A stretch of DNA of 55,976 nt from Sporichthya polymorpha DSM 43042 (GTDB taxonomy: Bacteria > Actinomycetota > Actinomycetes > Sporichthyales > Sporichthyaceae), in the NCBI RefSeq assembly GCF_000384115.1, contig NZ_KB913029.1:308446-364421 (forward strand), in the 5' to 3' direction. Positions 16,936 to 34,525 of this stretch are shown here, in pieces (positions within the stretch are counted from its first letter, which is position 1; each line of letters begins with the position of its first letter). The position numbers were made by a program, and so were the translations under genes. Below the pieces are notes generated by a model. It saw only the letters and a program-made list of their open reading frames with translations. It made no database searches and was not told where the DNA came from.

Positions 16936-18177
16936 TCATCGGGCGCCGGGCGTGAAGGTCAACGGCAGGGTGTCGACGCCGCGGACATGTCCCAGATGGC
17001 GCACGATCTTGGATCCCTCGGAGACGCGGTAATCCGGCATCCGCCGGTGAATCTCCTCGAAGACGATCCGTAGCTCCAGTCGGGCCAAGTGCGAGCCCAG
17101 GCACCGATGTGCCCCGGCTCCGAACGCGAGGTGCCGGTTGGGGTCGCGATCGAGGATGACGGTGTTCGCGTCCTCGAACTCCGCCGAGTCGCGTCCGGTG
17201 GCCCCACAGAGCAACATCACTCGGTCGCCCTCACGCAGGGTGACACCGTGCATCTCGACGTCACGCGTGATGCGCCGGCCAGGAGCGATCGGCGATTCCC
17301 ACCGCATGAGTTCTTCGACGGCCAACGGGATCGCGCTGGGGTCGTCGATGAGCTTCTGCCGCTCGTCGGGATGTTCGGCCAGCCAGGCGATCCCGTTGGA
17401 CAGCACGCTCTTGGTCGTATCCAACCCCGCGATCAGGAGCAGGAAAACGATGTCGAGAACCTCGAACTGCGAGAGTTCACGCTCCCCTGCGAAGCGCGCG
17501 TCGAGCAGTGCGCTGACGAGGTCATCGCCCCGATGTTCGGTGCGAGCATCCACGATCTCCGCGAAGTACGTGTACAGCGCTAGGCCCGCCTCCTCGCGGA
17601 GCGCCGTCGATGCCTCGGGGTCACCCGGGACGCCGCGAATGATGTCGTCGGTCCACTTCAGGAACGTGGGAGCGTCCTCCAACGGCCACCCCATCAGGGT
17701 GAGGAAGGCTCGGGTGGGGAACGGATTCGCCAACTCCGCCACGAATTCGCACGATCCCCTCTCGATGAAGGCGTCGATCAGTTCGGTGACCAATGCCCGC
17801 AGCTGCCCTTCGAGGGGGTTGATACGCCCGGGACCGAACAGGGGCGCAAGAATGCGCCGGTAGTACGCATGGTCCGGCGGGTCGATCTCCAGCGGGATCA
17901 TCGGCCGGTCCTGTCCCAGGTTCTCCGGGATGGCATTCGGGTTCGACGAGAAGATCTCCGGGTTGTCGTAGGCGAACCGAACATCCTCGTAGCGCGACAG
18001 CACCCAGTAGCCGCCATGGCCCTCCGCCCGCCCGAGGGGGCACTTGGCCCGAAACTCCTCGTACAAAGGATAGGGATCGTCTGCGATCGCCGGGTCGTGC
18101 ACGTCGAAACGGCGCATCGCCTCCGGCATCTCGAACGGAAGGGGCGCCGTCGGCTCGGACTCATCGAGAGCGGTCAT
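16936..18177 (-). CDS. Cytochrome P450 (operon-proximal copy)
   Basis: 413 residues with I-helix AGLDTT at 250-255, ExxR at E289-R292 and heme ligand Cys359 in FGAGAHRCLG. It is about 87% identical by eye to the P450 at 2498-3745, with differences concentrated in the N-terminal 50 residues and in scattered surface positions. AAAGGAGG before the ATG is the strongest Shine-Dalgarno site in the operon. As the first gene behind a candidate promoter it probably performs the entry hydroxylation; the partners are likely the ferredoxin and reductase at 34283-36294. Confidence 0.96.
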   Translation of the reverse strand: MTALDESEPTAPLPFEMPEAMRRFDVHDPAIADDPYPLYEEFRAKCPLGRAEGHGGYWVLSRYEDVRFAYDNPEIFSSNPNAIPENLGQDRPMIPLEIDPPDHAYYRRILAPLFGPGRINPLEGQLRALVTELIDAFIERGSCEFVAELANPFPTRAFLTLMGWPLEDAPTFLKWTDDIIRGVPGDPEASTALREEAGLALYTYFAEIVDARTEHRGDDLVSALLDARFAGERELSQFEVLDIVFLLLIAGLDTTKSVLSNGIAWLAEHPDERQKLIDDPSAIPLAVEELMRWESPIAPGRRITRDVEMHGVTLREGDRVMLLCGATGRDSAEFEDANTVILDRDPNRHLAFGAGAHRCLGSHLARLELRIVFEEIHRRMPDYRVSEGSKIVRHLGHVRGVDTLPLTFTPGAR

Positions 18178-18677
18178 TCCGGTCCTCCTTTGGACTTCAC
18201 GGCGTCACCCGAGAGCGCGCTCGCCGCGCGCGGGGAACTATGGACGCACGCGTCTACCCTAGAGCAATGAGATAACTGTTTGCAATAATCTGCCGGACGC
18301 AAGGGGGAGGTACCCCAACTGTGCGCCCCGGTCCCCAGGAACAGCCGTTGGGAACGGCAGGAGCCGCTGACTGGCTGGCCGGACGATCATCATGTCGGGC
18401 GAAAGTCCTGGACCGGGCCGGCGGGAACTCGGCACGGCGCCAGGAGGGAGCCAACAGGTCCTACTTACCAATACGGATCAGGCGGACCGACGAGCGCTCG
18501 GCACCGCGCACACCGCGGGGCGGAAATCCAGGGGCCGATGGGAAGGCCGTCGCGGTTGTCGGCGACGTACGTAACGAGCAGAACGTCCGTCGGGCGATGG
18601 ACCCCGGTCTCCCATATTCGGCGAGTTCTCGGCCCCACGCCGAACTTTCCTAGGCACATGTCACTGACTCGGTGCGT
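18178..18677. other. Non-coding leader and gap upstream of the P450 operon
   Basis: About 500 bp between the P450 start and the reconstructed end of the frameshifted efflux gene. Short open frames here have no family features and I treat them as chance. The only distinct element is the AT-rich promoter/operator block at 18256-18285. Confidence 0.5.
18256..18285 (-). promoter_or_regulatory. Candidate promoter and operator of the P450 operon
   Basis: On the minus strand a TTGCAA -35-like box (18280-18285) and a TAGGGT -10-like box (18256-18261) are 18 bp apart, about 80 bp before the P450 ATG. Between them lies AGATAACT (18270-18277), a member of the recurrent leader motif of this island. A GCAA/TTGC inverted repeat brackets the block. 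The GC-rich surroundings make the AT-rich patch stand out. Confidence 0.45.
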
Positions 18678-20380
18678 TCAGCCCGCGCTGCTGCATTCAG
18701 CGCACGCGGGTCTGGGTCGAGGACATCTGATTGCCCGGCCGGCGCACTCAGCGCGCCCATAACCGGCCTCGTGATCGCCAGTCCTGGTGGAGCCGAAACC
18801 GCGGTCGATGGCGGTGCTGGGTCCACCTGCCGGGGCGGAACGGAGTGAGGTCCGGCCCCGGGGTCCGGGGGCGAAGATGCCGACGAAAACGGCAGTGACG
18901 GTCGTGAAAATGGCACAGGCAAGAAACGCTCCGTGCATACCAGACTGGAACGCCTGCTCTGCTTCGGCCAGGGCCGAGTTGGCCGCCGGGCCCATGAGTT
19001 CGTGTACGTGGAGCGCTCCGCTGTATGAACCCTCCGCAGCTTCTCGGTGCGCCTCGGGCAGTGCTCCCACTGCTGGCCCCAGATGATGGGAGTAGCCGGT
19101 GGCCAGTAGTGAGCCGACGACCGCAATCCCGAGGGCTGCGCCCACTTCGCGCGCGGCGATTCATTCACCGCGCTGGCGACTCCGTGCTTAGCAGCGGGCA
19201 CGCTGCCGAGGATCGCAACGGTTGCCGGTGTGATGCACAACCCAAGCGTCACGCCGAACAACATCACCGCCGCCACGAACCGGCCGGTTTCACCCTTGTC
19301 CATCGTCGCCAGGAGCGCAAATGCCCCCGCCATGGGAATAAGTCCCCAGGCGGTTACGACGCGCAGCCCGAACCGGTCGACCAGCGCGGGCGCGGCCGGC
19401 GAGAGCGGAATCATCGGGATAGCCATCGGCATGAGCATCAGCCCCGCGCGCAACGGCGACTGCCCTTCGAGCAGCTGCAGAAGCTGCACACTGAGGAAGA
19501 AGAACCCGAATATCAGGGCGAAAAGGGCCACCAGTTCAACGCTGGCAACCAAGACCGATCGGGAGCGAAAGATTCGCAGGTCAAGCAAGGGGTGCGCCCG
19601 CCGCCATTCAACTGCCGCGAAGCCGAACGCGCACAAAACACCAGACAAGGCGGCGGCCACGACGATTCCCGAGGACCAGCCGTGAGCGGGTGCCTCCAGG
19701 ATGCCGAAGACCACCAACCCGATGCCTAATGCGCTCAGGGCGGCGCCCACCAGATCGAAAGGAGGCGGGTCTGTGTCGGCGGACTCCCGCACCGCCCAAC
19801 CGAGGAACGCCGTCAAGACCGCCACGAGTGCGGAGATATAGAGAATTGCGCGCCAGGACGAGTGCTCCAGCACCAGACCGGCGAACACGAAACCCCCCGC
19901 TCCGCTGAGGGTGGCAGTGGACACCCACACACCGACTGCACGGGCCTGCGTCTCGCGTCGCATGGTCGTCGTGATCAACGACAACGTCGAGGGCATGACG
20001 AGCGCCGCTCCCAGCCCGGCCAGACCTCGGGTGAGCACCAAAAGGAGCGGGTCATCCCCGAGGGTGCCGAACACGCATGCGGCAGCGAACAGCAGGAGCC
20101 CGCCGATCAGTGTCCGACGCCGGCCATGGCGGTCGCCGAGCGCCCCGCACGGCAGCAGAAGACCGGCAAACGCCACGGTGTAGGCATCGATGATCCACGT
20201 CAGTTGGCTCTGGTTGGCCCCAGTCGCCCGGCCGATGTCCGGCAAGGCCACCGTCAGCGACGTCATCGACCCCACCACGGTGGCCAGGGCAACGCACAGA
20301 ACACCCAAAGCCAGAGGCTGGTTCTCGCGAGCCAGGCCTCCGCCCGCCGCAAATCCACCCTTCGTCCGCTCAGCCGACAT
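18678..20380 (-). pseudogene. DHA2-type MFS efflux transporter, frameshifted
   Basis: The first 400 or so residues are a 14-TM drug:H+ antiporter of the EmrB/QacA type, with GALGDRHGRRRTLIG in the 2-3 loop and SGAGGFVFAGLVLE in helix 5. At 19148-19156 a CG-dinucleotide run shifts the frame: GVASAVNESPR continues as non-homologous Trp/Arg/Pro-rich sequence to a stop at 18650. In the other frame the expected EVGAALGIAVVGSLLATGY follows and ends at 18678, giving about 566 residues. One extra CG unit explains it. This is either a real inactivating slip or a sequencing error. Confidence 0.8.
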
Positions 20381-20558
20381 CCGTCATCGGCTTCCCCTCA
20401 GAACAAAGACGTGAAGTGGTGCACTTTACGAAGTCACTTCCTGCGTGGAGAGACACGTCGCACCTCCTCCCGATGAAAGTGACGCGATCCCTCTCGCACC
20501 TTGCTTCTTCAGCCGCAGAGAACGCGTTTTCGTTTCCCGCACTAGCGTGGGGGCTTGA

Positions 20559-22577
20559 TCAGGAGGCGCTCATATGTGTGGGAGGAGTACGATCAGCTCG
20601 GTTCACTACTACCGGACGGGACGAAGTGCCCACCCCCAGCAGCCGCTCGGTAGCGCCGACGAATCCGCCGGCGAAGCCGAGACTGAGCAGCGCCAAAACG
20701 CCGAACGCCATCGTCGAGTAACCCTGCAGGAATCCAATCTCGGCCATGTACTTAGGAACGAAGACGTACGCGAGGCCGGCGATGACCGGCGCAAATGTCC
20801 GCCGAGTCCCGACGGCGTAAATGATGACGAACAGCAACAGTGAGACGAGCGTCTGGAAGTCCAGGGCGCCGAACCGTCCCAGGCTCATCGAGAAGAGCAT
20901 TCCTGCCACCCCAGCCATCCCTGCGGACAGGCCGAACAGGCCCAGACGGTAGGCCCACGATCGGAAGCCCAAGGCCGCGACCGCCGTCGGGCTTTGTTCC
21001 AGCGCTCTCAGGACGCGCCCGCTTCGCGACCGCGATACGTTCCGCAGGATCAGGACTGACCCCGTGGCGAACAGTAGGCAGAGCAGCCAGAAACGGCCGC
21101 CCCCTTCAAATCCGGCAGGATTACGCAACGGGAATCCGAGCGAACCGTTCGAGATGTCCACGGACGTGAACGCGGTGCCGTCCACGAAGAATCCGAAACT
21201 CAGCGTGGCGACCGCGAGCATGATGCCCTTCACCCGCGTGGCCGCCGCGGCAATGATCAAACCCACGAGGGCCGCAGCGACAGCGGCGACCAACAGGCTC
21301 ACCCAGGCATCAGTTCCGGAGCCGGCCACACAGCGAAGGCGGCCGGTCGTCTCATCCGAGCTGCACGAACTGCTGTACCGCGCACCCGCCAATGCCCCGA
21401 TGCCCATGAAGGTGGCCTGGCATAGCGAGACCTGCCCGCCCAGACCGTTCAACAGGGTCATGCTGGAGAACACGACGGTCCAGATCGCCGCGAGGGTGAG
21501 GTTGAACTGAAGGTCGGCACCGGCGGTGGCCCCGACCGCCCAAATGCCGACGACGCCCACAATCCACGGCGTGGAACGCAGCCCCGCCACCAGGCCGTTC
21601 TGCTTTTGCCGACGGCGCACCTCACGCAGGCGGAGGAGACCCGACTGACCGATGTCGACCTGGTTCTGTGAGGCGGTCTGGTCGATGTCGCCACCAGGAC
21701 CAACCTCGGTCTTGCGCACGATGAAGACGATGAGCGCGCCACTGAGAAGCAGGAACGGCAACGCCGACCCCAAGCTGCCGTACTTCTCGGTGACGTCGGA
21801 GGGCAGGCGAGAGAACTCGATGGTCAGAATTCCAAGCAGCACCGACCCCGCCAAGGCCCAGGGGATACTGACCAGCCGTCCGACCGTCGCGGCGGTGAGC
21901 CCACTGATGACGAGGAAGGTCAGGCCGAACGAGCTCAGGGACCCGAGCGGGGCGATCAAGATGCCCGCAGCCGTCGCCAGCATGGTGGACATCGCCCAGC
22001 CGAGCGCCTGCAACCGCGTCACGTCGATGCTGTAGGCGGCTGCCAACTCGGGATTCTCCGCGATCGCGCGGAGCGCCTTACCGGGGCCACTCACGGTCAG
22101 GAAGAACAGAAGTCCTGCCGCCACGAGCCCGGCCACGATGATCGGTGCCATCTGGTCGCTGGAGATGCGCGAATCACCCACTGCGACACTGCCGGCGGGG
22201 ACAACGCTCTTGACGAACTTCGGGTCGCCGTTCCAAACCTTGAAGACCAGCTCGTTCAAGATGACGATGAGCGCCACCGAGCCCGCGATCTTCGTCGAAT
22301 CATCCCGGGAGGACAAGCGGCCGAACAGTCCGGTTCCAATCACCACTCCCACGATGGGAGCGAGAATGAACAGGCAGAAGATCGCGGCAACCAGGGTCGG
22401 CCAGCCCTGACGGGACGTCAGATCCCAGTACACGTACGTGTTGACCATGGCGATGGCGCCGTGGGCAAGGTTCAGGAACTTGCTCACGCGGTAGGTCAGA
22501 ACCAGCCCGAGGACCAGGAGCGCATAAACGCCCCCGAGGCTGAGGCCGCCGACGACGAAGACGAACTCAACATCCAT
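20559..22577 (-). CDS. Branched-chain-type ABC permease, fused LivH-LivM
   Basis: 672 residues. Residues 1-300 form a LivH permease (GVYALLVLGLVLTYRVSKFLNLAHGA at the start) and about 340-640 a LivM permease (LNGLGGQVSLCQATFMGIGA), joined by a charged cytoplasmic linker at about 305-340. The two ATPase-coupling loops are visible around GPGKALRAIAENPELAAAYS and SRSGRVLRALEQSPTAVAAL. In most bacteria these are separate genes. The permease is the last gene of the uptake operon, 2 bp after LivF. The substrate is unknown; in this setting a hydrophobic acid is more likely than an amino acid. Confidence 0.92.
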   Translation of the reverse strand: MDVEFVFVVGGLSLGGVYALLVLGLVLTYRVSKFLNLAHGAIAMVNTYVYWDLTSRQGWPTLVAAIFCLFILAPIVGVVIGTGLFGRLSSRDDSTKIAGSVALIVILNELVFKVWNGDPKFVKSVVPAGSVAVGDSRISSDQMAPIIVAGLVAAGLLFFLTVSGPGKALRAIAENPELAAAYSIDVTRLQALGWAMSTMLATAAGILIAPLGSLSSFGLTFLVISGLTAATVGRLVSIPWALAGSVLLGILTIEFSRLPSDVTEKYGSLGSALPFLLLSGALIVFIVRKTEVGPGGDIDQTASQNQVDIGQSGLLRLREVRRRQKQNGLVAGLRSTPWIVGVVGIWAVGATAGADLQFNLTLAAIWTVVFSSMTLLNGLGGQVSLCQATFMGIGALAGARYSSSCSSDETTGRLRCVAGSGTDAWVSLLVAAVAAALVGLIIAAAATRVKGIMLAVATLSFGFFVDGTAFTSVDISNGSLGFPLRNPAGFEGGGRFWLLCLLFATGSVLILRNVSRSRSGRVLRALEQSPTAVAALGFRSWAYRLGLFGLSAGMAGVAGMLFSMSLGRFGALDFQTLVSLLLFVIIYAVGTRRTFAPVIAGLAYVFVPKYMAEIGFLQGYSTMAFGVLALLSLGFAGGFVGATERLLGVGTSSRPVVVNRADRTPPTHMSAS

Positions 22578-22579
22578 GG

Positions 22580-23431
22580 TCAGTCCGTTCCCTCAGAGCT
22601 GTTGCGATGGGCGGCAACGCCACCTCCGGCCGCCACGCTGTGCCTCGTGATGCCGGGTCCGGGGGCCGCCGTGGCATCGGCCGCGGAGGTTGCCGCCTCG
22701 GCCAAGTCGCGGGCAGCGCGGGCTTTGCCCAGATAGGCGGCCTCGAGCACGGAGGGATCCTCGAGCTGCGTGGGCCAGCCACGGAAAGCGACCCGGCCTT
22801 TAGCGAGGACCCACGCAAAGTCGGCCAACTCCAGCGCGCGGGCGGCAAACTGCTCGACGACCAGCAGAGCAGTCCCTTCGGCGTGCAGGACGCGCAAGGT
22901 CTCGAACACCTGATCCACCACGATGGGTGCCAGGCCCAGGGAAGGCTCGTCCAGCATGACGATTTTGGGCCGCAGGAGAACCGCGCGGCCGAGCGCCAGC
23001 ATGCGCTTCTCGCCACCGCTGAGGCTGCCGGCGGACTGATCCCTCCGCTTACCCAGGATCGGGAACAGTTCGTAGAGTTCGCGGAGTGCGGCCGGCGAGA
23101 CCCGCCCCCCTCGCTGAGCTAGGTCGAGATTGTCCGCCACCGAAAGCTCCTGGAAGACTCCGCCGCCCTCCGGGATGTAACACACTCCCTCGCGGGCTAC
23201 CTTCCAGCCCGACTTACCGCGAATGTCCTTGCCGTTGACAAGGACGCGGCCTGCCCAGCACGGCATGGCGCCACTGGCAACCCGCAGCAGGGTGCTCTTC
23301 CCTGCCCCGTTGGAGCCGAGCACAGCGACGACAGCGCCTTCAGGAACCCGCAGCGACACGTCCGTTAGAGCCGGGATTTTTCCATAGCCCGTTCGGACGC
23401 GATCGATCTGCAGAACGATGGGCCTACTCAC
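22580..23431 (-). CDS. ABC transporter ATPase, LivF type
   Basis: 283 residues: Walker A GSNGAGKST (39-47), signature LSGGE (137-141), Walker B MLDEP (159-163) and the LivF-typical SLGLAPIVVDQVF after it. An Ala/Pro-rich tail of about 40 residues extends past the usual end at about 240. The GTG start overlaps the LivG stop by 4 bp. It powers the fused permease downstream. Confidence 0.94.
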   Translation of the reverse strand: MSRPIVLQIDRVRTGYGKIPALTDVSLRVPEGAVVAVLGSNGAGKSTLLRVASGAMPCWAGRVLVNGKDIRGKSGWKVAREGVCYIPEGGGVFQELSVADNLDLAQRGGRVSPAALRELYELFPILGKRRDQSAGSLSGGEKRMLALGRAVLLRPKIVMLDEPSLGLAPIVVDQVFETLRVLHAEGTALLVVEQFAARALELADFAWVLAKGRVAFRGWPTQLEDPSVLEAAYLGKARAARDLAEAATSAADATAAPGPGITRHSVAAGGGVAAHRNSSEGTD

Positions 23432-24255
23432 AGCACCAGTCCAGCCTTTCCGAGATACGCCTCGCGAACCCGCTCGTCGCGCAGGACGGCGGCCGTCGGG
23501 CCGGCCGTGAGCACCTCTCCGAACTGAAGCACGACGACCTGTTCACACAGCCGGTCAATCACACTCATGTCGTGCTCAATGACGACGATCGTGAGGTCCT
23601 GCCGTTGATGGAGCAGGAGAATCTCTTCGGCCATCTCGGCCGACTCCCGCGGGTCAAGACCCGAAGCCGGCTCGTCAAGGAGAAGCATGCGTGGTCGGGC
23701 GGCGATCGCTCGGGCCAACTCCACGCGTCGACGAATTCCCAGCGGGAGCGCACCCGCGAGGACGTCCGCATAGCCGACGAGGTTCGTGATGTACAGCGCC
23801 TCCCGCACCCGGTCGAGCCGAACGCCACGAAGACCCCGGTCGAACCCAAGTACGTCTGCCAACAACGTGCGCGGCAACGAATAACTCGCACCGTCCAAGG
23901 CCAGCAGGACGTTCTCCGCTACCGTCATGCGCTCGGCGAGGGCGACGCGCTGGAAAGTCTGGGACACCCCGGCCGCCGCAACTGCGACGGGATTGAGCAC
24001 CGGCAGCGGTTCCCCGAACAACCGGATGGTTCCAGCTGTGGGCCCGAGGAAGCCGGTCAGGACCTTGAGGAACGTCGTCTTACCCGAACCGTTCGGACCG
24101 ACGATACCGGTGATGCGACCTACCGGGACCTCGATGTCGACGTCGTTCAGCGCCCGCGTGCCACCAAAATGTTTGCTGAGACCAACGGCTTGCACGGCGA
24201 GGCCGCCAACTTCTCCAGCCCCGACACTCGACTCCGCCACGCCGCTCACCGTCAC
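23428..24255 (-). CDS. ABC transporter ATPase, LivG type
   Basis: 275 residues: Walker A GPNGSGKTT (53-61), a degenerate signature LPLGIRRRVELARA in place of LSGGQ (LivG proteins often vary here), Walker B MLLLDEPASGLD and a His switch in VIEHDMSV. The GTG start overlaps the stop of the two-TM gene by 4 bp. It is the second ATPase of the heteromeric Liv-type importer. Confidence 0.94.
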   Translation of the reverse strand: MTVSGVAESSVGAGEVGGLAVQAVGLSKHFGGTRALNDVDIEVPVGRITGIVGPNGSGKTTFLKVLTGFLGPTAGTIRLFGEPLPVLNPVAVAAAGVSQTFQRVALAERMTVAENVLLALDGASYSLPRTLLADVLGFDRGLRGVRLDRVREALYITNLVGYADVLAGALPLGIRRRVELARAIAARPRMLLLDEPASGLDPRESAEMAEEILLLHQRQDLTIVVIEHDMSVIDRLCEQVVVLQFGEVLTAGPTAAVLRDERVREAYLGKAGLVL

Positions 24256-24677
24256 GACTCGTGGGAGGACGTCGCCCGCTGGTGCTCCTGCCGCAGCTGA
24301 CGAAGGTCTGCCGAGAAGTTCTGGAAGTGGCGGGACAGGATCAGCACGGATCCAACGAGGGTCATGAACATCCCGAAGGCCGTCTGGGCCGAGAGAAACA
24401 CCAGCTGATCCTGCACCTTCGGCGTGGAACTGACCTGGAAGTAGCCGACACTGATGAGCACCGCACCGACAACGATGAACGCCCAGCCCGCGATCGAATC
24501 CAAACGTCGGCGCACGATGAAATCCAGCACGGCGTCGGTGGCCGCTGAGCCGCCGCCGGAGCGAACCGGCGCGCCGGCCGGTCCCCCTTCCAGCAGCGAG
24601 TCGAACAGGTCTTCGCCGGGGTCACCGACGAATTCGGCGGCATCCGCCACAGGTAGTCGTGACGAGGAACTGGTCAT
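24252..24677 (-). CDS. Small two-TM membrane protein of unknown function (paralogue of 6152-6589)
   Basis: 141 residues: an acidic N-terminal region, helices at about 61-80 and 95-115 with the SVGYFQVS loop, and a charged C-terminal tail (FSADLRQLRQEHQ). It matches the two-TM protein of the P450 operon across the hydrophobic core. GGAAGG lies 7 bp before the ATG at 24677; the TTG at 24683 is rejected. Being translationally coupled to LivG suggests an accessory membrane subunit of the importer, but the family is unknown to me. Confidence 0.82.
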   Translation of the reverse strand: MTSSSSRLPVADAAEFVGDPGEDLFDSLLEGGPAGAPVRSGGGSAATDAVLDFIVRRRLDSIAGWAFIVVGAVLISVGYFQVSSTPKVQDQLVFLSAQTAFGMFMTLVGSVLILSRHFQNFSADLRQLRQEHQRATSSHES

Positions 24678-24715
24678 GCTCAAACCTTCCTAACTACGGA
24701 GAGCGCAGGGAAGCT

Positions 24716-26228
24716 GCGCGTACTACTTGAGGCAGTACCAGCCCTTACTGATCATCTTGAAGTTGCCCTTGGTGATGCGGCCTTCCATGCTGCACCGGAC
24801 CTCCTTGTGGGTGCCGTCCGGAAGCGGCTTGTAGTCGGTGTCCGGCGGCATCAAGCTGCCCAGAGCCGGATCGAGCTTGGCCAACGATGCATGGGTCTGG
24901 CCATTCAGCCAGTCGATCAGCTTCTTCCGGGTCAGATCAGCACCGAGCTGCTCAAGCGCAACCGCGAGCAGTTTCGCTGCGGTGAACCCACGTACCGTCC
25001 ACACGCTGTTCTTGTAGACAGGACCGTACGCCGCCTTCATCGCGGCCTGGTACTCCCGGATACCCGGCAATTCGGTCGCCGTCCACGGGGGCACCGGGAA
25101 GTTGGCCTCGAAACCCTCGAGCAACTCGGCCGGAGCCGCCTTGGTGAGGCTGTCGTCAGCCCCGCCGGACACCAAGCCGACGTAGGGCTTCCAGTTCTGC
25201 TTGGACAGCGCCTTGGCCAGCGCCACCGACAACGAGGACTCGAAACAGTGAATGATCCCATCCGCCCCGGCCGATCGCGCCTGCTGCGCGTACGTGCTGA
25301 CATCAGGGGCCGCGATCGGCACGTTCGCGGTGTAGACGATCTCACCACCGAGATCCTTCAACCGCTTGACCGCCGACGCGCACCCCTCGACCGAAACCTG
25401 GATGTTCGCCCACATCACAGCGAACTTCGTCGCGCGCTTCTGCGTGAACGCCCAGTCGGCCATCGTGGCCGTGCCCACATACTGGTTACCGATCGGGAAC
25501 ATATTGGGATACTGGAACCAGGCATTGTTCGCACTGTCCGTGCCCACGACCGGCACACCCTGCTCGTTCAGGTACTGCGCGCTGGCTGACGCCGCGAGCG
25601 GGTCGCCCTCCGTGATCGCAAACACCTTGCTGCCATCGACGAGCTGCCGCGCAGCCGAGGCATTCACACCCGAGTTGCCCTGCGTATCGGCCGTGACCGT
25701 CTTGATCGTACGACCACAGATCCCACCCTTGGCGTTGATCGCCCTGATCCCGGCGTCATAGCCCAGCTTGATCGGCCCGATCGTCGACCCGACCGCACCC
25801 GTCTGCGAGATCAACTCACCGATGAGCACAGAATTCGGCGTCACGCCCACATCGGAGGCCTTCCCCACACACGAGGCCGCCGCGCCGCCACCAGCGTTGG
25901 AGCTCGGGTTCTGCGCCCCACCCGGCTTGTTTCCACCCGGCGCCGTTCCCGTGCCCGCGGAGCCACCGCCCGTCCCACCCGAAGGCCCCGGCCCCGTCCC
26001 GGCACCGGGATTCTGCCCTACAGACGACCCATCCGACGCAGTCACCGTGCCCGGCTCTGCCACGGAACCGACCTCAGGCGACACCCCCGAATCCGTCGTC
26101 ACAGACGTGCCACCAGCCGCAGCCGGCGCATCCGGGGCCGCACTCTCCCCATACCGCTGACCGCACCCCACCAGCACGACCAACAACGGCGACAACACCA
26201 AAGCCACTGACTTACGCGATCTCATCGA
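24716..26228. repeat. Direct repeat copy 1 (binding-protein gene)
   Basis: A 1513-bp block with no difference seen by eye to 26342-27854 (offset 1626). It starts 7 bp past the stop codon and ends 3 bp before the start codon of the binding-protein gene, so only the coding sequence is duplicated. The flanks and ribosome-binding sites differ between copies. Confidence 0.92.
24723..26225 (-). CDS. ABC substrate-binding lipoprotein (copy 1)
   Basis: 500 residues. Lipoprotein signal with lipobox LVGC (Cys22 region), a Gly/Pro/Ser/Thr-rich linker of roughly 95 residues, then a Leu/Ile/Val-binding-protein fold starting near VGVTPNSVLIGELISQTG. It is the extracellular receptor of the Liv-type importer. 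It is identical in protein sequence to the second copy upstream but has its own leader: a GAGG element 11-12 bp before the ATG, followed by an A/T run. The linker probably spans the cell wall. It lies directly before the two-TM gene and the ATPases. Confidence 0.94.
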   Translation of the reverse strand: MRSRKSVALVLSPLLVVLVGCGQRYGESAAPDAPAAAGGTSVTTDSGVSPEVGSVAEPGTVTASDGSSVGQNPGAGTGPGPSGGTGGGSAGTGTAPGGNKPGGAQNPSSNAGGGAAASCVGKASDVGVTPNSVLIGELISQTGAVGSTIGPIKLGYDAGIRAINAKGGICGRTIKTVTADTQGNSGVNASAARQLVDGSKVFAITEGDPLAASASAQYLNEQGVPVVGTDSANNAWFQYPNMFPIGNQYVGTATMADWAFTQKRATKFAVMWANIQVSVEGCASAVKRLKDLGGEIVYTANVPIAAPDVSTYAQQARSAGADGIIHCFESSLSVALAKALSKQNWKPYVGLVSGGADDSLTKAAPAELLEGFEANFPVPPWTATELPGIREYQAAMKAAYGPVYKNSVWTVRGFTAAKLLAVALEQLGADLTRKKLIDWLNGQTHASLAKLDPALGSLMPPDTDYKPLPDGTHKEVRCSMEGRITKGNFKMISKGWYCLK

Positions 26229-26341
26229 ATTTTTTTCCTCGTCTGGGGGCCGGCGAATTCGACCCGGTGTCTGGCGGTGACGAGCACGTGTGCGGGGATG
26301 GTCACCGAGGTTTGTGACCCACTTTCGGCGGTCCGTCCCCG

Positions 26342-27854
26342 GCGCGTACTACTTGAGGCAGTACCAGCCCTTACTGATCATCTTGAAGTTGCCCTTGGTG
26401 ATGCGGCCTTCCATGCTGCACCGGACCTCCTTGTGGGTGCCGTCCGGAAGCGGCTTGTAGTCGGTGTCCGGCGGCATCAAGCTGCCCAGAGCCGGATCGA
26501 GCTTGGCCAACGATGCATGGGTCTGGCCATTCAGCCAGTCGATCAGCTTCTTCCGGGTCAGATCAGCACCGAGCTGCTCAAGCGCAACCGCGAGCAGTTT
26601 CGCTGCGGTGAACCCACGTACCGTCCACACGCTGTTCTTGTAGACAGGACCGTACGCCGCCTTCATCGCGGCCTGGTACTCCCGGATACCCGGCAATTCG
26701 GTCGCCGTCCACGGGGGCACCGGGAAGTTGGCCTCGAAACCCTCGAGCAACTCGGCCGGAGCCGCCTTGGTGAGGCTGTCGTCAGCCCCGCCGGACACCA
26801 AGCCGACGTAGGGCTTCCAGTTCTGCTTGGACAGCGCCTTGGCCAGCGCCACCGACAACGAGGACTCGAAACAGTGAATGATCCCATCCGCCCCGGCCGA
26901 TCGCGCCTGCTGCGCGTACGTGCTGACATCAGGGGCCGCGATCGGCACGTTCGCGGTGTAGACGATCTCACCACCGAGATCCTTCAACCGCTTGACCGCC
27001 GACGCGCACCCCTCGACCGAAACCTGGATGTTCGCCCACATCACAGCGAACTTCGTCGCGCGCTTCTGCGTGAACGCCCAGTCGGCCATCGTGGCCGTGC
27101 CCACATACTGGTTACCGATCGGGAACATATTGGGATACTGGAACCAGGCATTGTTCGCACTGTCCGTGCCCACGACCGGCACACCCTGCTCGTTCAGGTA
27201 CTGCGCGCTGGCTGACGCCGCGAGCGGGTCGCCCTCCGTGATCGCAAACACCTTGCTGCCATCGACGAGCTGCCGCGCAGCCGAGGCATTCACACCCGAG
27301 TTGCCCTGCGTATCGGCCGTGACCGTCTTGATCGTACGACCACAGATCCCACCCTTGGCGTTGATCGCCCTGATCCCGGCGTCATAGCCCAGCTTGATCG
27401 GCCCGATCGTCGACCCGACCGCACCCGTCTGCGAGATCAACTCACCGATGAGCACAGAATTCGGCGTCACGCCCACATCGGAGGCCTTCCCCACACACGA
27501 GGCCGCCGCGCCGCCACCAGCGTTGGAGCTCGGGTTCTGCGCCCCACCCGGCTTGTTTCCACCCGGCGCCGTTCCCGTGCCCGCGGAGCCACCGCCCGTC
27601 CCACCCGAAGGCCCCGGCCCCGTCCCGGCACCGGGATTCTGCCCTACAGACGACCCATCCGACGCAGTCACCGTGCCCGGCTCTGCCACGGAACCGACCT
27701 CAGGCGACACCCCCGAATCCGTCGTCACAGACGTGCCACCAGCCGCAGCCGGCGCATCCGGGGCCGCACTCTCCCCATACCGCTGACCGCACCCCACCAG
27801 CACGACCAACAACGGCGACAACACCAAAGCCACTGACTTACGCGATCTCATCGA
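26342..27854. repeat. Direct repeat copy 2 (binding-protein gene)
   Basis: Second copy of the 1513-bp block, separated from copy 1 by 113 bp of unrelated sequence (26229-26341). An 11-bp match, GGGAAGCTGCG, occurs just outside the outer edges of the tandem pair at 24708-24718 and 27871-27881. Confidence 0.92.
26349..27851 (-). CDS. ABC substrate-binding lipoprotein (copy 2)
   Basis: Residue-for-residue the same 500-residue Liv-type binding lipoprotein as copy 1, including the low-complexity linker, which normally diverges fastest. Start at 27851 with GGAGA 6 bp upstream; the longer frame to 27938 has no support. It is transcribed before copy 1 and after the anchored secreted protein. Identity down to the wobble positions implies very recent duplication, gene conversion or an assembly artefact. 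Confidence 0.93.
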   Translation of the reverse strand: MRSRKSVALVLSPLLVVLVGCGQRYGESAAPDAPAAAGGTSVTTDSGVSPEVGSVAEPGTVTASDGSSVGQNPGAGTGPGPSGGTGGGSAGTGTAPGGNKPGGAQNPSSNAGGGAAASCVGKASDVGVTPNSVLIGELISQTGAVGSTIGPIKLGYDAGIRAINAKGGICGRTIKTVTADTQGNSGVNASAARQLVDGSKVFAITEGDPLAASASAQYLNEQGVPVVGTDSANNAWFQYPNMFPIGNQYVGTATMADWAFTQKRATKFAVMWANIQVSVEGCASAVKRLKDLGGEIVYTANVPIAAPDVSTYAQQARSAGADGIIHCFESSLSVALAKALSKQNWKPYVGLVSGGADDSLTKAAPAELLEGFEANFPVPPWTATELPGIREYQAAMKAAYGPVYKNSVWTVRGFTAAKLLAVALEQLGADLTRKKLIDWLNGQTHASLAKLDPALGSLMPPDTDYKPLPDGTHKEVRCSMEGRITKGNFKMISKGWYCLK

Positions 27855-27897
27855 GGTCTCCGATCTTCTCGGGAAGCTGCGAGCAGGGGCGCACCGC

Positions 27898-29442
27898 TTA
27901 GCGCTGGGGGGCCGCGGTGAGTCCCGGTCCGGCCCCACGCGACCGCGCGAGGTTGCCCACCATCGCGACGACGCAAGCGACGGCGAGAAGCAGGGGCCAG
28001 ATCGCCGCCCATCTCAGCGGGGTGTCCGACAGCGGGTTGGCCATACTCACTTGCTCGTTGGTCACGACCGCACCTCCCTGGGAGGGGCTGATGCCGCCCG
28101 TGTCGAGCGCGACCGTTCCCCCGTTCATCTCGGGCAGGGCTCCCAAGCCGATGTTGTCTGCGATCGAGTCCACGCCAGTGACGCCAGTCGATGGCAACTG
28201 CGCAGACCCGTTATCTTGCGTCCCCGAGATGGCTGCGGAGCCAGTCGTGCCGTCGCTCGCGCCGGCGTTGAACACCGGGCCGGTGAGGATCGAGCCGCGG
28301 CTGTAGCCCAAGCCGATCTCCACCGTGGACGTGGAGCCGCCGAGGACCGGAACATTGGCGTCGGGCGTGAACGCCATGTCTACCTTCAGGCCTGCAGCTT
28401 CGGTCACTGCGCGCGAGGTCGAGTCCGCCTTGACAGTCCTACCGGCCTCCTTGGCGAGGGTCACGGTCACGCCCGCCTGCTTCAACAGATCTGCCAGTTG
28501 AGAGTTCAGCGTGGCGATCGTGCTGTCGGGGAGGGACGGGGTCCCGTTGATCGTGACCCCCTTCGCATCGATGGTGGCCGGATACCCCAAGGCGGTCACC
28601 TTGCCAAGAGTGACGGCCGAGGACGACATGGCTTTCGTGCCGTCGCCGACGATCGTCGTCACGGATTTCAGGCTGTCGACGGTGATGACGCCGAGAATGT
28701 TGATGTCACTCAGGATCGAGGTAGCGGTGCCCAAGACGTTGTCAGCCTTGACTTCCCCGGTAGTGAAGGAGCGCACGGCACCGACGGACAGCGGGCCGGT
28801 CGGCCCGAGCAGGCCGGAGGTCACCTGCGTCGCGGCAGCCTCAGAGCTGACGGCGTTTGCTGAGGCGTGCGACGCGGCCGTTCCAGACCCGCTGCTGATG
28901 CCCGATCCGCCGTTGACCGCGCCGAAACCTGTCTGGGCATCCGGGGTGAACGGGTAGTTCGTATTGACGGTGTTGGGAGCCGGCGGTGGTACCGGCACCG
29001 GCACCGGCGGGAACGGATCCGAGGGAAGCGGCGGGAGCGGAGCGGCCGGCAGCGGAAGGCCCAGGAGACCCGGCAGCCCGGTGAGAAGCCCGCCGACGTC
29101 GGCGGCGCTGCTCGGAACCAACTGGCCGAGCAGGCCCCCCGCGGTCTCGGCTGAACCGAGGCCCACGAGGGATGCCGAGCCTTGACGGCCGCCGACCGAG
29201 TTCAGGATCGCACTGCTCGGGAACACCTGCAGGTCCAGGACCGGGTGGAAGAGGAACGGTCGATCCACCGCTACTCGCAGCGGCGCAGCACCAAGATCCA
29301 TCTCGAAGTTGCCCGAGAACGTGGCCGCCGCGGGGTCAGGGCTGTCGGAGGCGGAGGCGACCAGAGGCATCGCGAAAATGGCTAGCGCGAACACTCCTGC
29401 ACCTGGAGCGACGACGGATGACGCCAAGCGAACTAATTTCAT
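27898..29442 (-). CDS. Secreted, C-terminally membrane-anchored protein of unknown function
   Basis: 514 residues: signal peptide (about 1-31, ending VASASDS), a region with FEMDLGAAPLRVAVDRPF, a Pro-rich linker (about 130-170), a Ser/Thr/Gly/Ala-rich beta-type domain to about 470, and one C-terminal helix (about 478-498) followed by a short basic tail. I recognise no domain. The start at 29442 has AAGGA 7-8 bp upstream. As the first gene of the uptake operon it could be a surface receptor or porin-like component delivering the substrate to the lipoproteins. Confidence 0.8.
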   Translation of the reverse strand: MKLVRLASSVVAPGAGVFALAIFAMPLVASASDSPDPAAATFSGNFEMDLGAAPLRVAVDRPFLFHPVLDLQVFPSSAILNSVGGRQGSASLVGLGSAETAGGLLGQLVPSSAADVGGLLTGLPGLLGLPLPAAPLPPLPSDPFPPVPVPVPPPAPNTVNTNYPFTPDAQTGFGAVNGGSGISSGSGTAASHASANAVSSEAAATQVTSGLLGPTGPLSVGAVRSFTTGEVKADNVLGTATSILSDINILGVITVDSLKSVTTIVGDGTKAMSSSAVTLGKVTALGYPATIDAKGVTINGTPSLPDSTIATLNSQLADLLKQAGVTVTLAKEAGRTVKADSTSRAVTEAAGLKVDMAFTPDANVPVLGGSTSTVEIGLGYSRGSILTGPVFNAGASDGTTGSAAISGTQDNGSAQLPSTGVTGVDSIADNIGLGALPEMNGGTVALDTGGISPSQGGAVVTNEQVSMANPLSDTPLRWAAIWPLLLAVACVVAMVGNLARSRGAGPGLTAAPQR

Positions 29443-29631
29443 CGATGATCCTTCTCGTGGCGAACAACCGGTAACCCCGATCCGGTCTGGATTACCTGAC
29501 AGTAAGTACCGCGCATAGTCACTTCCACTGCCATGCAATTATGGAATGTCTAATCTCTTCCCTCTAGCAGTCACGAGGACCCGGGTGGCCGCTCTTTCCA
29601 CAAGAGCCCCGCGGCTGGGAGGTTCGATCTC

Positions 29632-30828
29632 CTATCGAGGAGGCATGGCGGGGTCATACGGCAACGACAAGATCTGTTCGGCGACAGCGTTCTTCTGGAC
29701 CTCGGTGGTCCCTGTGCCGATGGTGGAGGCCCGGGTCTTGAGGAAGCCCGTGGTCCAGCGGTTTCGTTGCACGGAAAGTTCATCCCCGCGCCCGAGCACG
29801 CCGAACGGCCCGAGGAGATCGACCGCGAACTCGTGTAGCTCTTGCTCGAACGCCGTGATCCACAACCGCGAGACCGACGAAGCGGGACCGAGTTCGCCCT
29901 TCGTTCGGATATCAGAGATAACCCGCATGGCGAAATAGCGCATCATCCGCACGCGGATATCGAAATCGACCAAGCCAGCCCGAATGTGCGGCTCTGCGGC
30001 GCGCCCTTGGTCCCGCGCCAGTTCGACCAATTCATCCACCACCCGGCGGTACATCGTGGCTTGATTCATGGCGCCGGCCGCGCGTTCGTGCCCGAGGCTG
30101 TTCCGCACCAGGGGCCACGCCCCGTTCTCAGGCCCGAGACGGTCAGCGACCGGGACCCGGACGTCATCGAGGAATACCTCGGCGAACTCTGCTTCACCGG
30201 TGATGTCCGGCAGCGGACGCACCGTGACGCCAGGACTGTGCAGGTCGATCATCAGGTAACTGATGCCGTCCTGACGCGAATCCGGCGCCCCGGTGCGCAC
30301 CAGCGCGTACAGCATGTCCGCACCGACGGCCTTGGTCGTCCAGACCTTCTGCCCGTTGACGACGTAGTGGTCGCCGTCGCGCCTGGCGCTGGTACGCAGC
30401 GAGGGGAGGTCCGATCCGGCGCCCGGCTCGGAGAATCCCTGCGCCCAGATCTTGTCACCCCGCAGCATCGGTCGCAGCCAACGATCCTGCTGGTCAGGTG
30501 TTCCGAACTTGATGATGGTGGGAGCCACGATTCCTAGGCCGGTCCCGAGCGGCGCGGGAACGCGCGCGCGCGCAAACTCCTCGGCGTACACGACCTGCAG
30601 ATCGAACGGCAAATCCATGCCGCCGAACTTCTTGGGCCAACTCGGTGCCGCGAAACCGTGCTCACACAGCGTTTCCATCCAGCCCTTCTGCCAGGCCAGC
30701 CGGTCGGCCGGGTCGGCTGGCCGCTTACCCGGTCCATGCTCGGCGAGGAATGCCCGAAGCTGATCACGGAACGCGGCTTCCGTGGCCGTACCGGTGTCCG
30801 AGCGACGCTCGCCATCCAGGGTGGTCAT
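29632..30828 (-). CDS. Acyl-CoA dehydrogenase, probable large subunit of a pair with 30825-31949
   Basis: 398 residues. FSEPGAGSDLPSL is the FAD/substrate motif, and the C-terminus ends TIGTGTTEVQKNAVAEQ, where Gly precedes the GT instead of the Glu of short-chain enzymes. The ATG at 30828 overlaps the stop of the neighbouring dehydrogenase by 4 bp, the arrangement of actinobacterial heteromeric dehydrogenases. The longer frame to 31029 lies within that neighbour. Confidence 0.92.
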   Translation of the reverse strand: MTTLDGERRSDTGTATEAAFRDQLRAFLAEHGPGKRPADPADRLAWQKGWMETLCEHGFAAPSWPKKFGGMDLPFDLQVVYAEEFARARVPAPLGTGLGIVAPTIIKFGTPDQQDRWLRPMLRGDKIWAQGFSEPGAGSDLPSLRTSARRDGDHYVVNGQKVWTTKAVGADMLYALVRTGAPDSRQDGISYLMIDLHSPGVTVRPLPDITGEAEFAEVFLDDVRVPVADRLGPENGAWPLVRNSLGHERAAGAMNQATMYRRVVDELVELARDQGRAAEPHIRAGLVDFDIRVRMMRYFAMRVISDIRTKGELGPASSVSRLWITAFEQELHEFAVDLLGPFGVLGRGDELSVQRNRWTTGFLKTRASTIGTGTTEVQKNAVAEQILSLPYDPAMPPR

Positions 30829-31949
30829 GCCGCCTCGATCCCGGTCAGGCGAGCAAGCCGCGCACGGTGCTCGACAGAGCTGCCGAACAGCACCTGAGTC
30901 AGCTTGGCTCGTTTCAGGTACAGGTGCGCATCGTGCTCCCAGGTGAAGCCGATGCCGCCGTGAACCTGAATGTTGTCCTTCGCTGCCTGCACGTATGCCT
31001 CCGAGCAGTAAGCCTTCGCCAGCGCGCAAGCGATCCGTGCGTCGGCCGCGTCCGTGTCGAGCGCCGCATTCACGTAGTACGCAGCCGAGCGCGCCGCTTC
31101 GAGCCTCACCAGCACGTCTGCGAGCTTGTGCTTGATGGCCTGGAATGATCCGATCGGCCGGCCGAACTGGACTCGCTGCTTCGCGTAGTCGACAGCCATG
31201 TCGAGACAGCGCCCGGCGCCGCCGACCTGTTCACTCGCGCATCCGGCAAGGACCCGGTCCTGCCAGCGCCGCAAGGCTTCGGTGGCGTCGGCGGTCCCGC
31301 TGATCAGGACGGCCGGCGCCGCCGAGAACTCCAGACGTGACCAAGGGCGCGTGAGATCCAGCCGAGCAAGCTCACGGCGGTGCAGGCCCGCGGCCGAACC
31401 GGGTACGGAGAACAACGCCAGACCAGCCTCGGTTCGGGCGACGACGAGGACGAGATCCGCCAGCGAACCGTCGGTCACGAACATCTTCGTTCCGCTCAAG
31501 CGCCAACCGTCGGCACCGTGCGTCGCGCGCATGGCAACGCGATCGAGATCCCAGCTCCCGGCGTCCTCGGCGATGGCGACGGTGGCGACCTGGCTGCCGT
31601 CAACCAAGCCCGGCAGAAGCGTCTCGCGCGCCTCGGCATCGGCGACGTGGATCAGTGCCTGCCCGGCGAGCAGGCACGTGGACATCAGCGGGCTCACGAG
31701 CAGGCCGCGGCCCGTCTCCTCAAACGCGATCCCGATCTCGACCGAACCGCCTCCGGAGCCACCGAACTCCTCGGGGATACCGAGGCCCTGCAGGCCGAGT
31801 TGCTCGGCCATCTGCTTCCACAAGGCTCGGTCAAACCCGGCGTCCGTGGCCATCAGCGCGCGGACCTCGGCACTGGTGGAACGCTCGTCGACAAACCGGC
31901 GGATCACACGCCGTAGCGCGTCCTGTTCGTCGGTGAAGGCGATCTCCAC
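30825..31949 (-). CDS. Acyl-CoA dehydrogenase, probable small subunit
   Basis: 374 residues. The acyl-CoA-dehydrogenase fold is clear in VQFGRPIGSFQAIKHKLAD and VHGGIGFTWEHDAHLYLKRA. The middle domain is weak (AIAEDAGSWDL in place of the TEP-GSD motif) and the end lacks a Glu-GT motif. Paired with the downstream gene it probably forms an alpha2beta2 enzyme for a bulky acyl-CoA. It lies 28 bp after the double-hotdog gene. Confidence 0.9.
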   Translation of the reverse strand: MEIAFTDEQDALRRVIRRFVDERSTSAEVRALMATDAGFDRALWKQMAEQLGLQGLGIPEEFGGSGGGSVEIGIAFEETGRGLLVSPLMSTCLLAGQALIHVADAEARETLLPGLVDGSQVATVAIAEDAGSWDLDRVAMRATHGADGWRLSGTKMFVTDGSLADLVLVVARTEAGLALFSVPGSAAGLHRRELARLDLTRPWSRLEFSAAPAVLISGTADATEALRRWQDRVLAGCASEQVGGAGRCLDMAVDYAKQRVQFGRPIGSFQAIKHKLADVLVRLEAARSAAYYVNAALDTDAADARIACALAKAYCSEAYVQAAKDNIQVHGGIGFTWEHDAHLYLKRAKLTQVLFGSSVEHRARLARLTGIEAA

Positions 31950-31977
31950 GATCGGTCCTCCTTCTCTGGTCCGGGTG

Positions 31978-33210
31978 TCAGTCCGTCAGGTAGCTGCGCG
32001 GCTCACCCAGGCCCAGCGGGGCTTCGGGCAGGCGTACTGGGCCGTGCTCCCGCGAGGCGAGCAGGACGGTGGCCGTGCCGAAGACCGTGGTCTCGCCGCG
32101 CTGGTTGACGCAGTTAACCGACAGGTCGACGAGCGGGCCGAGTTCGGGGTCCACACGTTTGTCGAGGATGCTCCCCTTCACCCACGTGGTGTCGCCCATG
32201 TAGTTGAACTTGCGGATCTCGGCGCGCATCGCGTACAGCCACCCATCGTCGCCCGCGAAGTTGGTCAACGCGTGCTGGAGCCAGCACATCCGCATGTAGC
32301 CGTAGTCGTACATCATCGGCACTCCGACCCGAGGGCCGAAGGACGGGTCCCAGTGCAAACGCTGCACGACATCCCACGCGCCGTTGTCGTTCTTCTGGTA
32401 GAAGGCGGGGATCCGCTTCCGGTTCTTGTAGCCGAGCTTCAGCGCACCGACCGCGTAGCCACCCCAGCCCCAGCCGATGTGCATCGAGATCAAGTCGGTG
32501 ACGGTCAGCGGGCCCTTGACGACCCCGGGCAGTTCGTCACCGACGACGGCATCTTCCCAGAAAAGCGTGTCCGCGCCACGGACGAACTCGTTCGCGTAAG
32601 CATCGTCGATCGCTGCTAGGTCGTCGTCGGTGTACTGAGCCGGTTCGACCGTCTTCAGGACGCCCGCCTTCGCCGCGGTGTCTCGCTCGGTGTGGACGAA
32701 CCAGTGGTGTTCCCACGCCGTGGTCGCGCCACGATTATTGGTGTAGGTCATCTCGTTGTGCGTCAGAACGGACTTGCCACCGCCGAAGGTCGAGTTCTTT
32801 TCCTCGATGTCGGTCATGATCGCCTTCATTTCAAGGCGATCACCCGGGTAGATCGGCTGAAAGAACTTCCATTCACCTCCGGAGTAAAACTGATGCACTC
32901 CCCGCAGTGCTCCAGAGGTCGCACGACGGACCTCGTCGGGCATGGCCGGGGAGACGTCATCGCCCATGGTCTGGAAGTACATGGGCGGTGCGATCTGCGC
33001 CCGCCAACGGGTCGTACGCCCGTAGTCCGGGTCCGTGAACAGTGGATTGTCGTCGCCGATGCCCTCACTGAAGTGGCGGATCGAGTCCGCGCTCGCGACC
33101 GTGTTGTGCAGGAATCGGTAGGGAATGGCGTAGCCGATGCGCTGCCGCATCTTCTCGACGTCTTCCGCGGTGATGCGCCCGTTGGTCACGTGCCGACTGC
33201 TTTGCGTCAC
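31978..33210 (-). CDS. MaoC-like double-hotdog acyl dehydratase
   Basis: 410 residues comprising two hotdog domains. The N-terminal one contains SIRHFSEGIGDDNPLF and GGEWKFFQPIYPGDRLE, typical of FAS1/MaoC N-terminal dehydratase domains; the C-terminal one contains RLHWDPSFGPRVGVPMMYDYG. It probably hydrates an enoyl-CoA made by the dehydrogenase pair encoded just downstream. The GTG at 33210 is preferred over the ATG at 33249: AAGGA lies 9 bp upstream of the GTG, while the ATG has no ribosome-binding site and abuts the AT-rich operator motif. Confidence 0.85.
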   Translation of the reverse strand: MTQSSRHVTNGRITAEDVEKMRQRIGYAIPYRFLHNTVASADSIRHFSEGIGDDNPLFTDPDYGRTTRWRAQIAPPMYFQTMGDDVSPAMPDEVRRATSGALRGVHQFYSGGEWKFFQPIYPGDRLEMKAIMTDIEEKNSTFGGGKSVLTHNEMTYTNNRGATTAWEHHWFVHTERDTAAKAGVLKTVEPAQYTDDDLAAIDDAYANEFVRGADTLFWEDAVVGDELPGVVKGPLTVTDLISMHIGWGWGGYAVGALKLGYKNRKRIPAFYQKNDNGAWDVVQRLHWDPSFGPRVGVPMMYDYGYMRMCWLQHALTNFAGDDGWLYAMRAEIRKFNYMGDTTWVKGSILDKRVDPELGPLVDLSVNCVNQRGETTVFGTATVLLASREHGPVRLPEAPLGLGEPRSYLTD

Positions 33211-33251
33211 TCCGTCGATTCCTTCTCTGCGAGGGGTCAATCGGTTCATAA

Positions 33252-33259
33252 AGCTAACT
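33252..33259. promoter_or_regulatory. Leader motif AGCTAACT
   Basis: Member of the recurrent AKNNWACT motif, 42 bp upstream of the dehydratase GTG start and followed by GTTTATT. It shares TAACTGTTT with the P450 operon leader (18270-18281). Confidence 0.4.
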
Positions 33260-33293
33260 GTTTATTCGCATGCTCGCAATGGGCGGACACGAA

Positions 33294-34154
33294 CTAGCCG
33301 ATGCACGCGCCGATCGTGCCCAGATAATCGCGGACGGCCTCGACGAAGGCGTCGTTGTCGTCTGCTGCCGCGGTGTGCGCCGCGCCGGCGACGTCGTAAA
33401 CGCGCAGCTGCGGCACCAGGGTGCGGAGCTCCTCGACCCCCTCGTCATCCACGATGTCGGAGAGGCGACCACGCACGAGGGCAACGGGGATGGTCAACCT
33501 CCGCACGGCGTCTTCCAGCCCACTGCCAGGCGGTCGGGCCTCGCCCGGGACCCTTCCGGCCAGAAACTTGGGGTCCCAATGCCAGACCCAGCGCCCATCC
33601 GACCGGCGGCGCAAGTTGTTACGAAGGCCCGGGGTAACGCCGCGCTGCGGCCGGTGGGGCAGATAGCTCGCGATCGCCTCCGCCGCCGCCTCCAACGAGT
33701 CGAAGCCGTCCGGGGCCCCCGTCATGAAATCCACGATGCGGCGCACCCCTTCGGGTCGCGCCCGCAGGACCACGTCCACGAGGACGAGTCCACACACACG
33801 CTCTGGCCCGAGTTGTGCGGCCACCAGCGCGCCCACCATGCCGCCAAGGCTCGCCCCGACGAGGACGACGGGCAATGCCAACTGCTGCTGCACCTCGACG
33901 ACATCGGCGGCGAAGGCGGCGACGCTGTAGTCGCCGTCCGGTGCCCAGTCGCTGTCCCCGTGCCCGCGGAGGTCGAGCGCGACACAGCGGGTTCGGGATC
34001 GACCGAGAGCGCGCGTCGCGGCGCCCCACGAGTGACGCGTCTGGCCTCCCCCGTGCAGAAGCAGCACCACCGGGTCCCCCGCGCTCCCCGCCGCCGAGGC
34101 CGCGAGCCGGACGCCGGCGCCTGCCAGGCTCAAGGTTTCCACTCGGTCAGTCAA
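33294..34154 (-). CDS. Alpha/beta-hydrolase
   Basis: 286 residues. HGGGQTRHSW forms the oxyanion hole, GASLGG (nucleophilic elbow Ser) follows, and the acid and His are likely in IVDDEGVEEL and GAAHTAAADDN. The family includes esterases, C-C hydrolases and lactonases; the substrate cannot be read. It is transcribed toward the dehydratase and dehydrogenase-pair unit and diverges from the ferredoxin gene across a 128-bp promoter region. Confidence 0.88.
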   Translation of the reverse strand: MTDRVETLSLAGAGVRLAASAAGSAGDPVVLLLHGGGQTRHSWGAATRALGRSRTRCVALDLRGHGDSDWAPDGDYSVAAFAADVVEVQQQLALPVVLVGASLGGMVGALVAAQLGPERVCGLVLVDVVLRARPEGVRRIVDFMTGAPDGFDSLEAAAEAIASYLPHRPQRGVTPGLRNNLRRRSDGRWVWHWDPKFLAGRVPGEARPPGSGLEDAVRRLTIPVALVRGRLSDIVDDEGVEELRTLVPQLRVYDVAGAAHTAAADDNDAFVEAVRDYLGTIGACIG

Positions 34155-34173
34155 TCACGCCCATGGTGTAATC

Positions 34174-34194
34174 GTACAGAGGATTGTACTCTTT
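34174..34194. promoter_or_regulatory. Palindrome and TGTACTCTTT box between hydrolase and ferredoxin
   Basis: GTACA-GAGGAT-TGTAC (34174-34189) is an inverted repeat that shares its GTACAGA arm with the palindrome at 146-164. TGTACTCTTT (34185-34194) is repeated exactly at 50068-50077 in another leader. The block lies between divergent genes, so it may control both, for example by the MarR protein encoded after the ferredoxin. Confidence 0.45.
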
Positions 34195-34282
34195 ATACTG
34201 CATCGGGATGCCGGCGGTGGACGCGTCCGCCGGCGGTCACGACACTGCTCGAAGAAGGCGTCTGATCGACAAGGTGGGCACC

Positions 34283-34477
34283 GTGAAAGTTGAGCTTCGT
34301 AAGGACGCATGCCAGGGACACGGGCGCTGCCACGCCCTCGCGCCTGAAGTCTTCAGCCTGGACGATGACGGCTACCTCGAATGGAACGGGCCGACGGAGA
34401 TCACCCCTGCTGACGAGCGAGCGGCACGCCGGGGGGTCACCGGATGCCCGGAGCGGGCACTGAGTGTGACCAACTGA
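34283..34477 (+). CDS. [3Fe-4S]-type ferredoxin for P450s
   Basis: 64 residues from a GTG start. Cys10 and Cys16 (CQGHGRC) and Cys55 followed by Pro (GCPERA) are the three cluster ligands of P450-associated ferredoxins; His13 occupies the position of a fourth Cys. It should pass electrons from the reductase at 35104-36294 to the two P450s. The frame extends upstream to 34184, but the compact ferredoxin begins VKVELRKDAC. It is followed by the MarR gene 48 bp later, on the same strand. Confidence 0.92.
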   Translation: MKVELRKDACQGHGRCHALAPEVFSLDDDGYLEWNGPTEITPADERAARRGVTGCPERALSVTN

Positions 34478-34525
34478 CGGGCTGCAGCGGCGCTGTGATC
34501 CCTTCGGGCCATCGTCGTCCTCCTC

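Follow-up and report, generated by a model that had tools for sequence, protein, structure and literature searches.

Short repeats can seed tandem duplications in bacteria, and in such cases a short direct repeat marks both ends of the unit that was copied. For tuf and other genes, homogenization of the coding sequence despite differing genomic contexts has been documented; the same paper notes that independent tandem duplication may instead lie behind the tandem pair fla (PMC6053082). In the tufA/tufB pairs, the coding sequences are very similar, their immediate contexts differ, and conversion is shown by phylogeny across many species (PMC6053082). Here, we describe a pair of binding-lipoprotein genes in Sporichthya polymorpha DSM 43042 that resembles both systems. 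The pair lies in the window, which is the whole stretch of 55,976 nucleotides that was analyzed (positions 308446-364421 of the source genome). As in the tuf pairs, its coding sequences match and their immediate contexts differ, but the window pair comes from one genome and its copies are adjacent. With short-repeat-seeded duplications it shares a short direct repeat at either end of the unit; unlike a simple case of that kind, it carries 113 bp of other DNA between the copies. The pair is ordinary in kind and fits known bacterial gene duplication and known ways of keeping copies alike. Among titles and abstract openings on duplicated or converted binding-protein genes, no such case was found.

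The extent of the repeat was determined by self-BLAST of 24001-28600 on both strands. The two blocks (Table 1) were the one repeat that this search gave, identical at 1513/1513 bp with 0 mismatches and 0 gaps, and string comparison likewise found the blocks equal. The initial annotation had claimed two blocks matching over their full length, bounded 7 bp after the stop codon and 3 bp before the start codon. The base-by-base comparison gave 0 differences, and the CDS coordinates agreed with the limits, as the blocks run from 3 bp before the ATG to 7 bp past the TAG in both copies. Each copy has 500 codons plus a stop, and the encoded proteins are the same letter for letter. As a DNA query, the 3139-bp duplicated region matched nothing but itself in the source genome. 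The identical pair is confirmed as real in the assembly.

Table 1. Features of the duplicated region and the adjoining importer genes (window coordinates)
Feature	Coordinates	Strand	Basis
Copy A, upstream, substrate-binding lipoprotein gene, 500 aa	26349-27851	-	Peripla_BP_6 E 1.4e-56; translation; identity
Copy B, downstream, same protein as copy A	24723-26225	-	Peripla_BP_6; translation; identity
Repeat block A, 1513 bp	26342-27854	-	Self-BLAST and string equality
Repeat block B, 1513 bp	24716-26228	-	Self-BLAST and string equality
Spacer, 113 bp, with leader of copy B (GAGG, 11 nt before ATG)	26229-26341	-	Unique in genome
CGCAGCTTCCC, first site, ends 19 bp before start of copy A	27871-27881	-	11-mer comparison of flanks
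CGCAGCTTCCC, second site, begins 4 bp after stop of copy B	24708-24718	-	11-mer comparison of flanks
Orphan secreted/membrane-anchored protein, upstream of pair	27898-29538	-	ORF; likely ATG near 29442; no Pfam/NCBIfam match
Small protein with hydrophobic stretches	24252-24683	-	ORF; likely ATG at 24677; no family
LivG-like ATPase	23428-24255	-	ABC_tran; best NCBIfam LivG, 183.8 of 362 bits, below cut-off
LivF-like ATPase	22580-23431	-	ABC_tran; best NCBIfam LivF, 191.8 of 441 bits, below cut-off
Fused LivH-LivM-like permease, 672 aa	20559-22577	-	BPD_transp_2, 2 stretches

The gene product is predicted to be a LIV-type (Peripla_BP_6/LivK) ABC substrate-binding lipoprotein. The Peripla_BP_6 domain spans residues 134-443 and scored 193.1 bits against a gathering score of 31.7. 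A cysteine after an N-terminal hydrophobic stretch marks a lipoprotein, and a candidate lipobox, LVGC (residues 18-21), was read by eye after such a stretch in the translation. The pair also adjoins two ABC_tran ATPase genes and a BPD_transp_2 LIV-type permease gene. The NCBIfam amino-acid/urea binding-protein cut-offs were missed (24.2 versus 492.75 bits and 22.5 versus 477 bits), and the closest solved relatives were weak, with an E-value of 4.6e-7 at best. On the minus strand, the gene order is orphan protein, copy A, copy B, small protein, LivG-like ATPase, LivF-like ATPase, and fused permease. The first half of the permease is UrtB/LivH-like and the second UrtC/LivM-like, with all NCBIfam matches below cut-off. 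Based on their spacing and shared strand, the importer genes are probably co-transcribed. Reading by eye shows a motif resembling LPSTG in the orphan protein and a hydrophobic stretch at its C terminus; the protein was present in one of the five genomes of the order, its own.

Outside the shared 3 and 7 bp, the flanks of the two copies differ. When the leaders of copies A and B were aligned, 1842 of 2000 shuffles scored as well over 20 bp and 920 of 2000 over 30 bp. The spacer had a single full-length match in its own genome, itself, the next best being 17 bp (E 0.155), and in the four other genomes of the order its best match was just 18 bp (E 0.0348). Unrelated flanks had been proposed from inspection, and these comparisons support that proposal. 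The separate ribosome-binding motifs proposed for each copy can likewise be seen in the sequence, as the SD-like motifs GGAG, 6 nt upstream of the copy A ATG, and GAGG, 11 nt upstream of the copy B ATG; they might let translation of the two copies be tuned independently, as had been suggested. Two origins of the spacer were rejected: a remnant of the copied flank, by the flank and leader comparisons, and a genomic repeat element, by the one full-length match among otherwise short pieces. A sigma-70 consensus scan of 24500-29800 returned 0 sites with 0.6 expected, an outcome that says little for this organism, and terminator-like sites numbered 3 against 2.5 expected. Structured RNA was not remarkable in the spacer (z -0.70), the leader of copy A (z -0.35), or the stretch after copy B (z -0.57). 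The spacer is unrelated to the flanks, yet the adjoining 1513 bp show 0 changes, so point mutation of a copied flank did not produce it. We infer that it was brought in by rearrangement, or that the CDSs were homogenized.

The initial annotation had overlooked an 11-bp direct repeat, CGCAGCTTCCC, that brackets the pair. It occurs twice in the window, both times on the minus strand, and is absent from the spacer. The first 3 bases of the second site lie inside repeat block B, and this site sits in a GCGCAG-CTTCC-CTGCGC hairpin in the stretch after copy B, whose fold z is unremarkable. An 11-mer was common to 5 of 5000 random 50 × 50-bp pairs from the window. Among 11-mer pairs with at least one member outside the repeat region, 3 identical pairs spaced 3100-3220 were found across the window, the CGCAGCTTCCC pair included. 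Because seven flank comparisons were made, we treat the 11-bp repeat as suggestive. A duplication seeded by CGCAGCTTCCC is predicted to carry along, besides the CDS, 4 bp past the stop and a 30-bp stretch of leader that contains the repeat. The intergenic gaps are short, with 46 bp upstream of the pair and 45 bp downstream, so with CGCAGCTTCCC in this position a seeded duplication would take little more than the CDS. A duplication that looks CDS-exact therefore need not imply an exotic mechanism where intergenic gaps are short. This qualifies the expectation that a tandem duplication takes flanking DNA along: the leaders are indeed unrelated and the simple junction is missing, but a CGCAGCTTCCC-seeded event copies little beyond the CDS in any case. 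The junction predicted from such recombination is 34 bp long and is not present between the copies; just its outer 7 and 3 bases, TACGCGC and TCG, were seen. The pair thus has the short direct repeat (11 bp) at the unit ends that a simple tandem duplication leaves and lacks the joined-end junction. Replacement of the 34-bp junction by 113 bp of unrelated DNA requires a second event.

Our preferred reading, to which we assign a probability of about 0.5, is an in-place duplication seeded by CGCAGCTTCCC, with the junction later replaced and the CDSs identical through conversion or youth. In this history, the binding-lipoprotein gene of a LIV-type importer cluster would have been duplicated in place when recombination between the 11-bp repeats just outside the gene gave a tandem copy with little beyond the CDS. 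Later, 113 bp of other DNA carrying the SD-like leader of copy B would have taken the place of the junction between the copies. RecA-type recombination between the close direct repeats may then have converted one copy, or all of these steps may be very recent; the order of events and the gene conversion are what we infer. The placement of CGCAGCTTCCC, where a near-CDS-exact duplication would be seeded, is consistent with this history, as is the retention of the outermost 7 and 3 bases of the predicted junction at the spacer ends. The coding identity stops where the flanks differ, as in gene-conversion pairs, and by analogy tuf-like conversion is a good candidate reason for the identity.

The other binding-protein genes of the genus were used as a control for homogenization. 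Binding-protein matches numbered 49 in the source genome, 52 in the sister species, and 23 in a third genome. The two copies were the sole full-identity matches in the source genome, and the best-scoring of the 47 weaker paralogues was 29% identical to the binding protein. We compared 15 binding-protein ORFs of the source genome (from the window and seven other stretches, out of 49 matches; phmmer E ≤ 1e-8, at least 300 aa). Among alignments longer than 250 residues, the next most alike pair after copies A and B reached 72%. A conserved tandem row of five binding-protein genes is shared by the source genome and the sister species with 89.8% DNA identity over 13 kb. Like the window pair, it places several binding-protein genes in a row beside a LIV-type permease. 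Its orthologues are about 87-93% identical as proteins; unlike the identical window pair, its neighbors are about 42-58% alike and diverge normally (these figures are approximate, as the ORFs were called mechanically and some overrun the true gene start). These comparisons indicate that the five-gene array is not homogenized, so the identity of the window pair needs youth or local conversion.

Youth without conversion is the core of a second explanation. A single recent complex rearrangement, through template switching or insertion, could have set a copy and a 113-bp filler beside the original, with no role for CGCAGCTTCCC. If the pair is young, its zero differences require no second process. 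The uniqueness of the spacer in the genome fits this account, as does the array control, which shows that binding-protein neighbors in the genus can diverge normally. However, this account places the two break points no more than 3 and 7 bp from the ends of the CDS. The gaps measure 46 and 45 bp, and we estimate such a placement as roughly a 1-2% coincidence even for breaks confined to them. Moreover, neither the genome itself nor the four others of the order yielded a sequence from which the filler could have come. We consider such a rearrangement possible, though doubtful.

Perfect identity that extends through the low-complexity linker could also come from mis-mapped polishing. Short-read polishing could have erased the differences between two diverged copies, or a single copy could have been written twice. 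The genome, however, is a single contig of 5,500,153 bases with 99.49% completeness. Neither the 113 bp of unique DNA between the copies nor the run of intact ORFs around them would come from a doubled contig. Given the single 5.50-Mb contig and the unique spacer, an assembly or polishing artefact is unlikely.

Relatives of the duplicated gene were sought at several distances. At E ≤ 1e-40, the binding protein was found in 0 of the 4 other genomes of the order and in 0 of the 59 other genomes of the phylum sample, where up to 25 candidates were scored per genome; the best match in the sister species was 30% identical. Six exact peptide patterns, a scan that reaches close relatives only, gave 18 stretches and 0 relatives in named species genomes. 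Of 21 plasmid records weakly matching the binding protein, 0 covered 80% of the query. For LivG, named species genomes gave at least 592 stretches and at least 484 relatives, the best 80 all at or below 40% identity, and the top-scoring relative of the permease outside its own locus was 33% identical. Among 40 scored candidates of 486 in the sister species, a draft of 90 contigs, no syntenic counterpart of 16000-35900 was found. The DNA matches to this region among those candidates were scattered over several contigs, the best being 69% identical over 1.3 kb and another 81% over 0.5 kb, compared with about 90% DNA identity for the five-gene row in the same two genomes. The region may have been gained here, lost in the sister species, or be missing from its draft.

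Codon usage sets the binding-protein gene apart from its surroundings. Among 32 minus-strand ORFs of the window (a few of them lack any family match and are perhaps not genes), this gene has the highest G/C ratio at fourfold sites, 1.87. The next highest is that of an MFS gene, at 1.56, and the five neighbors taken as importer partners range from 0.69 to 1.12 (G versus C, Fisher p 2.6e-6). In the eight paralogues examined, C exceeds G at third positions overall. This bias may reflect a separate origin or different codon selection. Taken as a sign of origin, it would point to a CDS-sized unit that was imported either twice or as a pair, with another replicon or another lineage as the donor and CGCAGCTTCCC as a possible target-site duplication around the whole pair. 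The other genes of the importer likewise have no close relatives, though, the ratio of the nearby MFS gene is also high, and the one transposase or integrase among the window ORFs scanned lies at 54731-55288, so that we hold import to be very improbable. Equally improbable is the copying of a CDS-sized unit without its regulatory flanks, by conversion or through a copied intermediate, with the codon bias marking a separate history; if this were true, one importer would be fed by two leader-independent sources of the same receptor.

The pair may supply one permease with more binding protein, perhaps with a doubled receptor dose. Recombination is expected to collapse direct repeats often when they are 1.5 kb long and lie 113 bp apart. 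Their presence here would thus point to a very young event or to selection for more binding protein. If real, the pair would be a clean case from nature in which the receptor gene of an ABC importer has been doubled and the possible seeding repeat is still visible.

The cluster around the importer also holds acyl-CoA dehydrogenases, thiolases, enoyl-CoA hydratases, AMP-binding enzymes of the acyl-CoA ligase type, a CoA transferase, and two P450s. These catabolic genes suggest that the importer takes up a compound degraded as a CoA ester, conceivably a steroid or terpenoid. A Pfam scan of 50 window ORFs, counting copies A and B separately, gave a single mobile-element gene, a DDE transposase ORF (PF01609) at 54731-55288. 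The two P450 genes (2498-3745 and 16936-18177) are 79% identical in DNA over 1188 bp and represent another duplication within this cluster, more diverged than that of the binding-protein gene.
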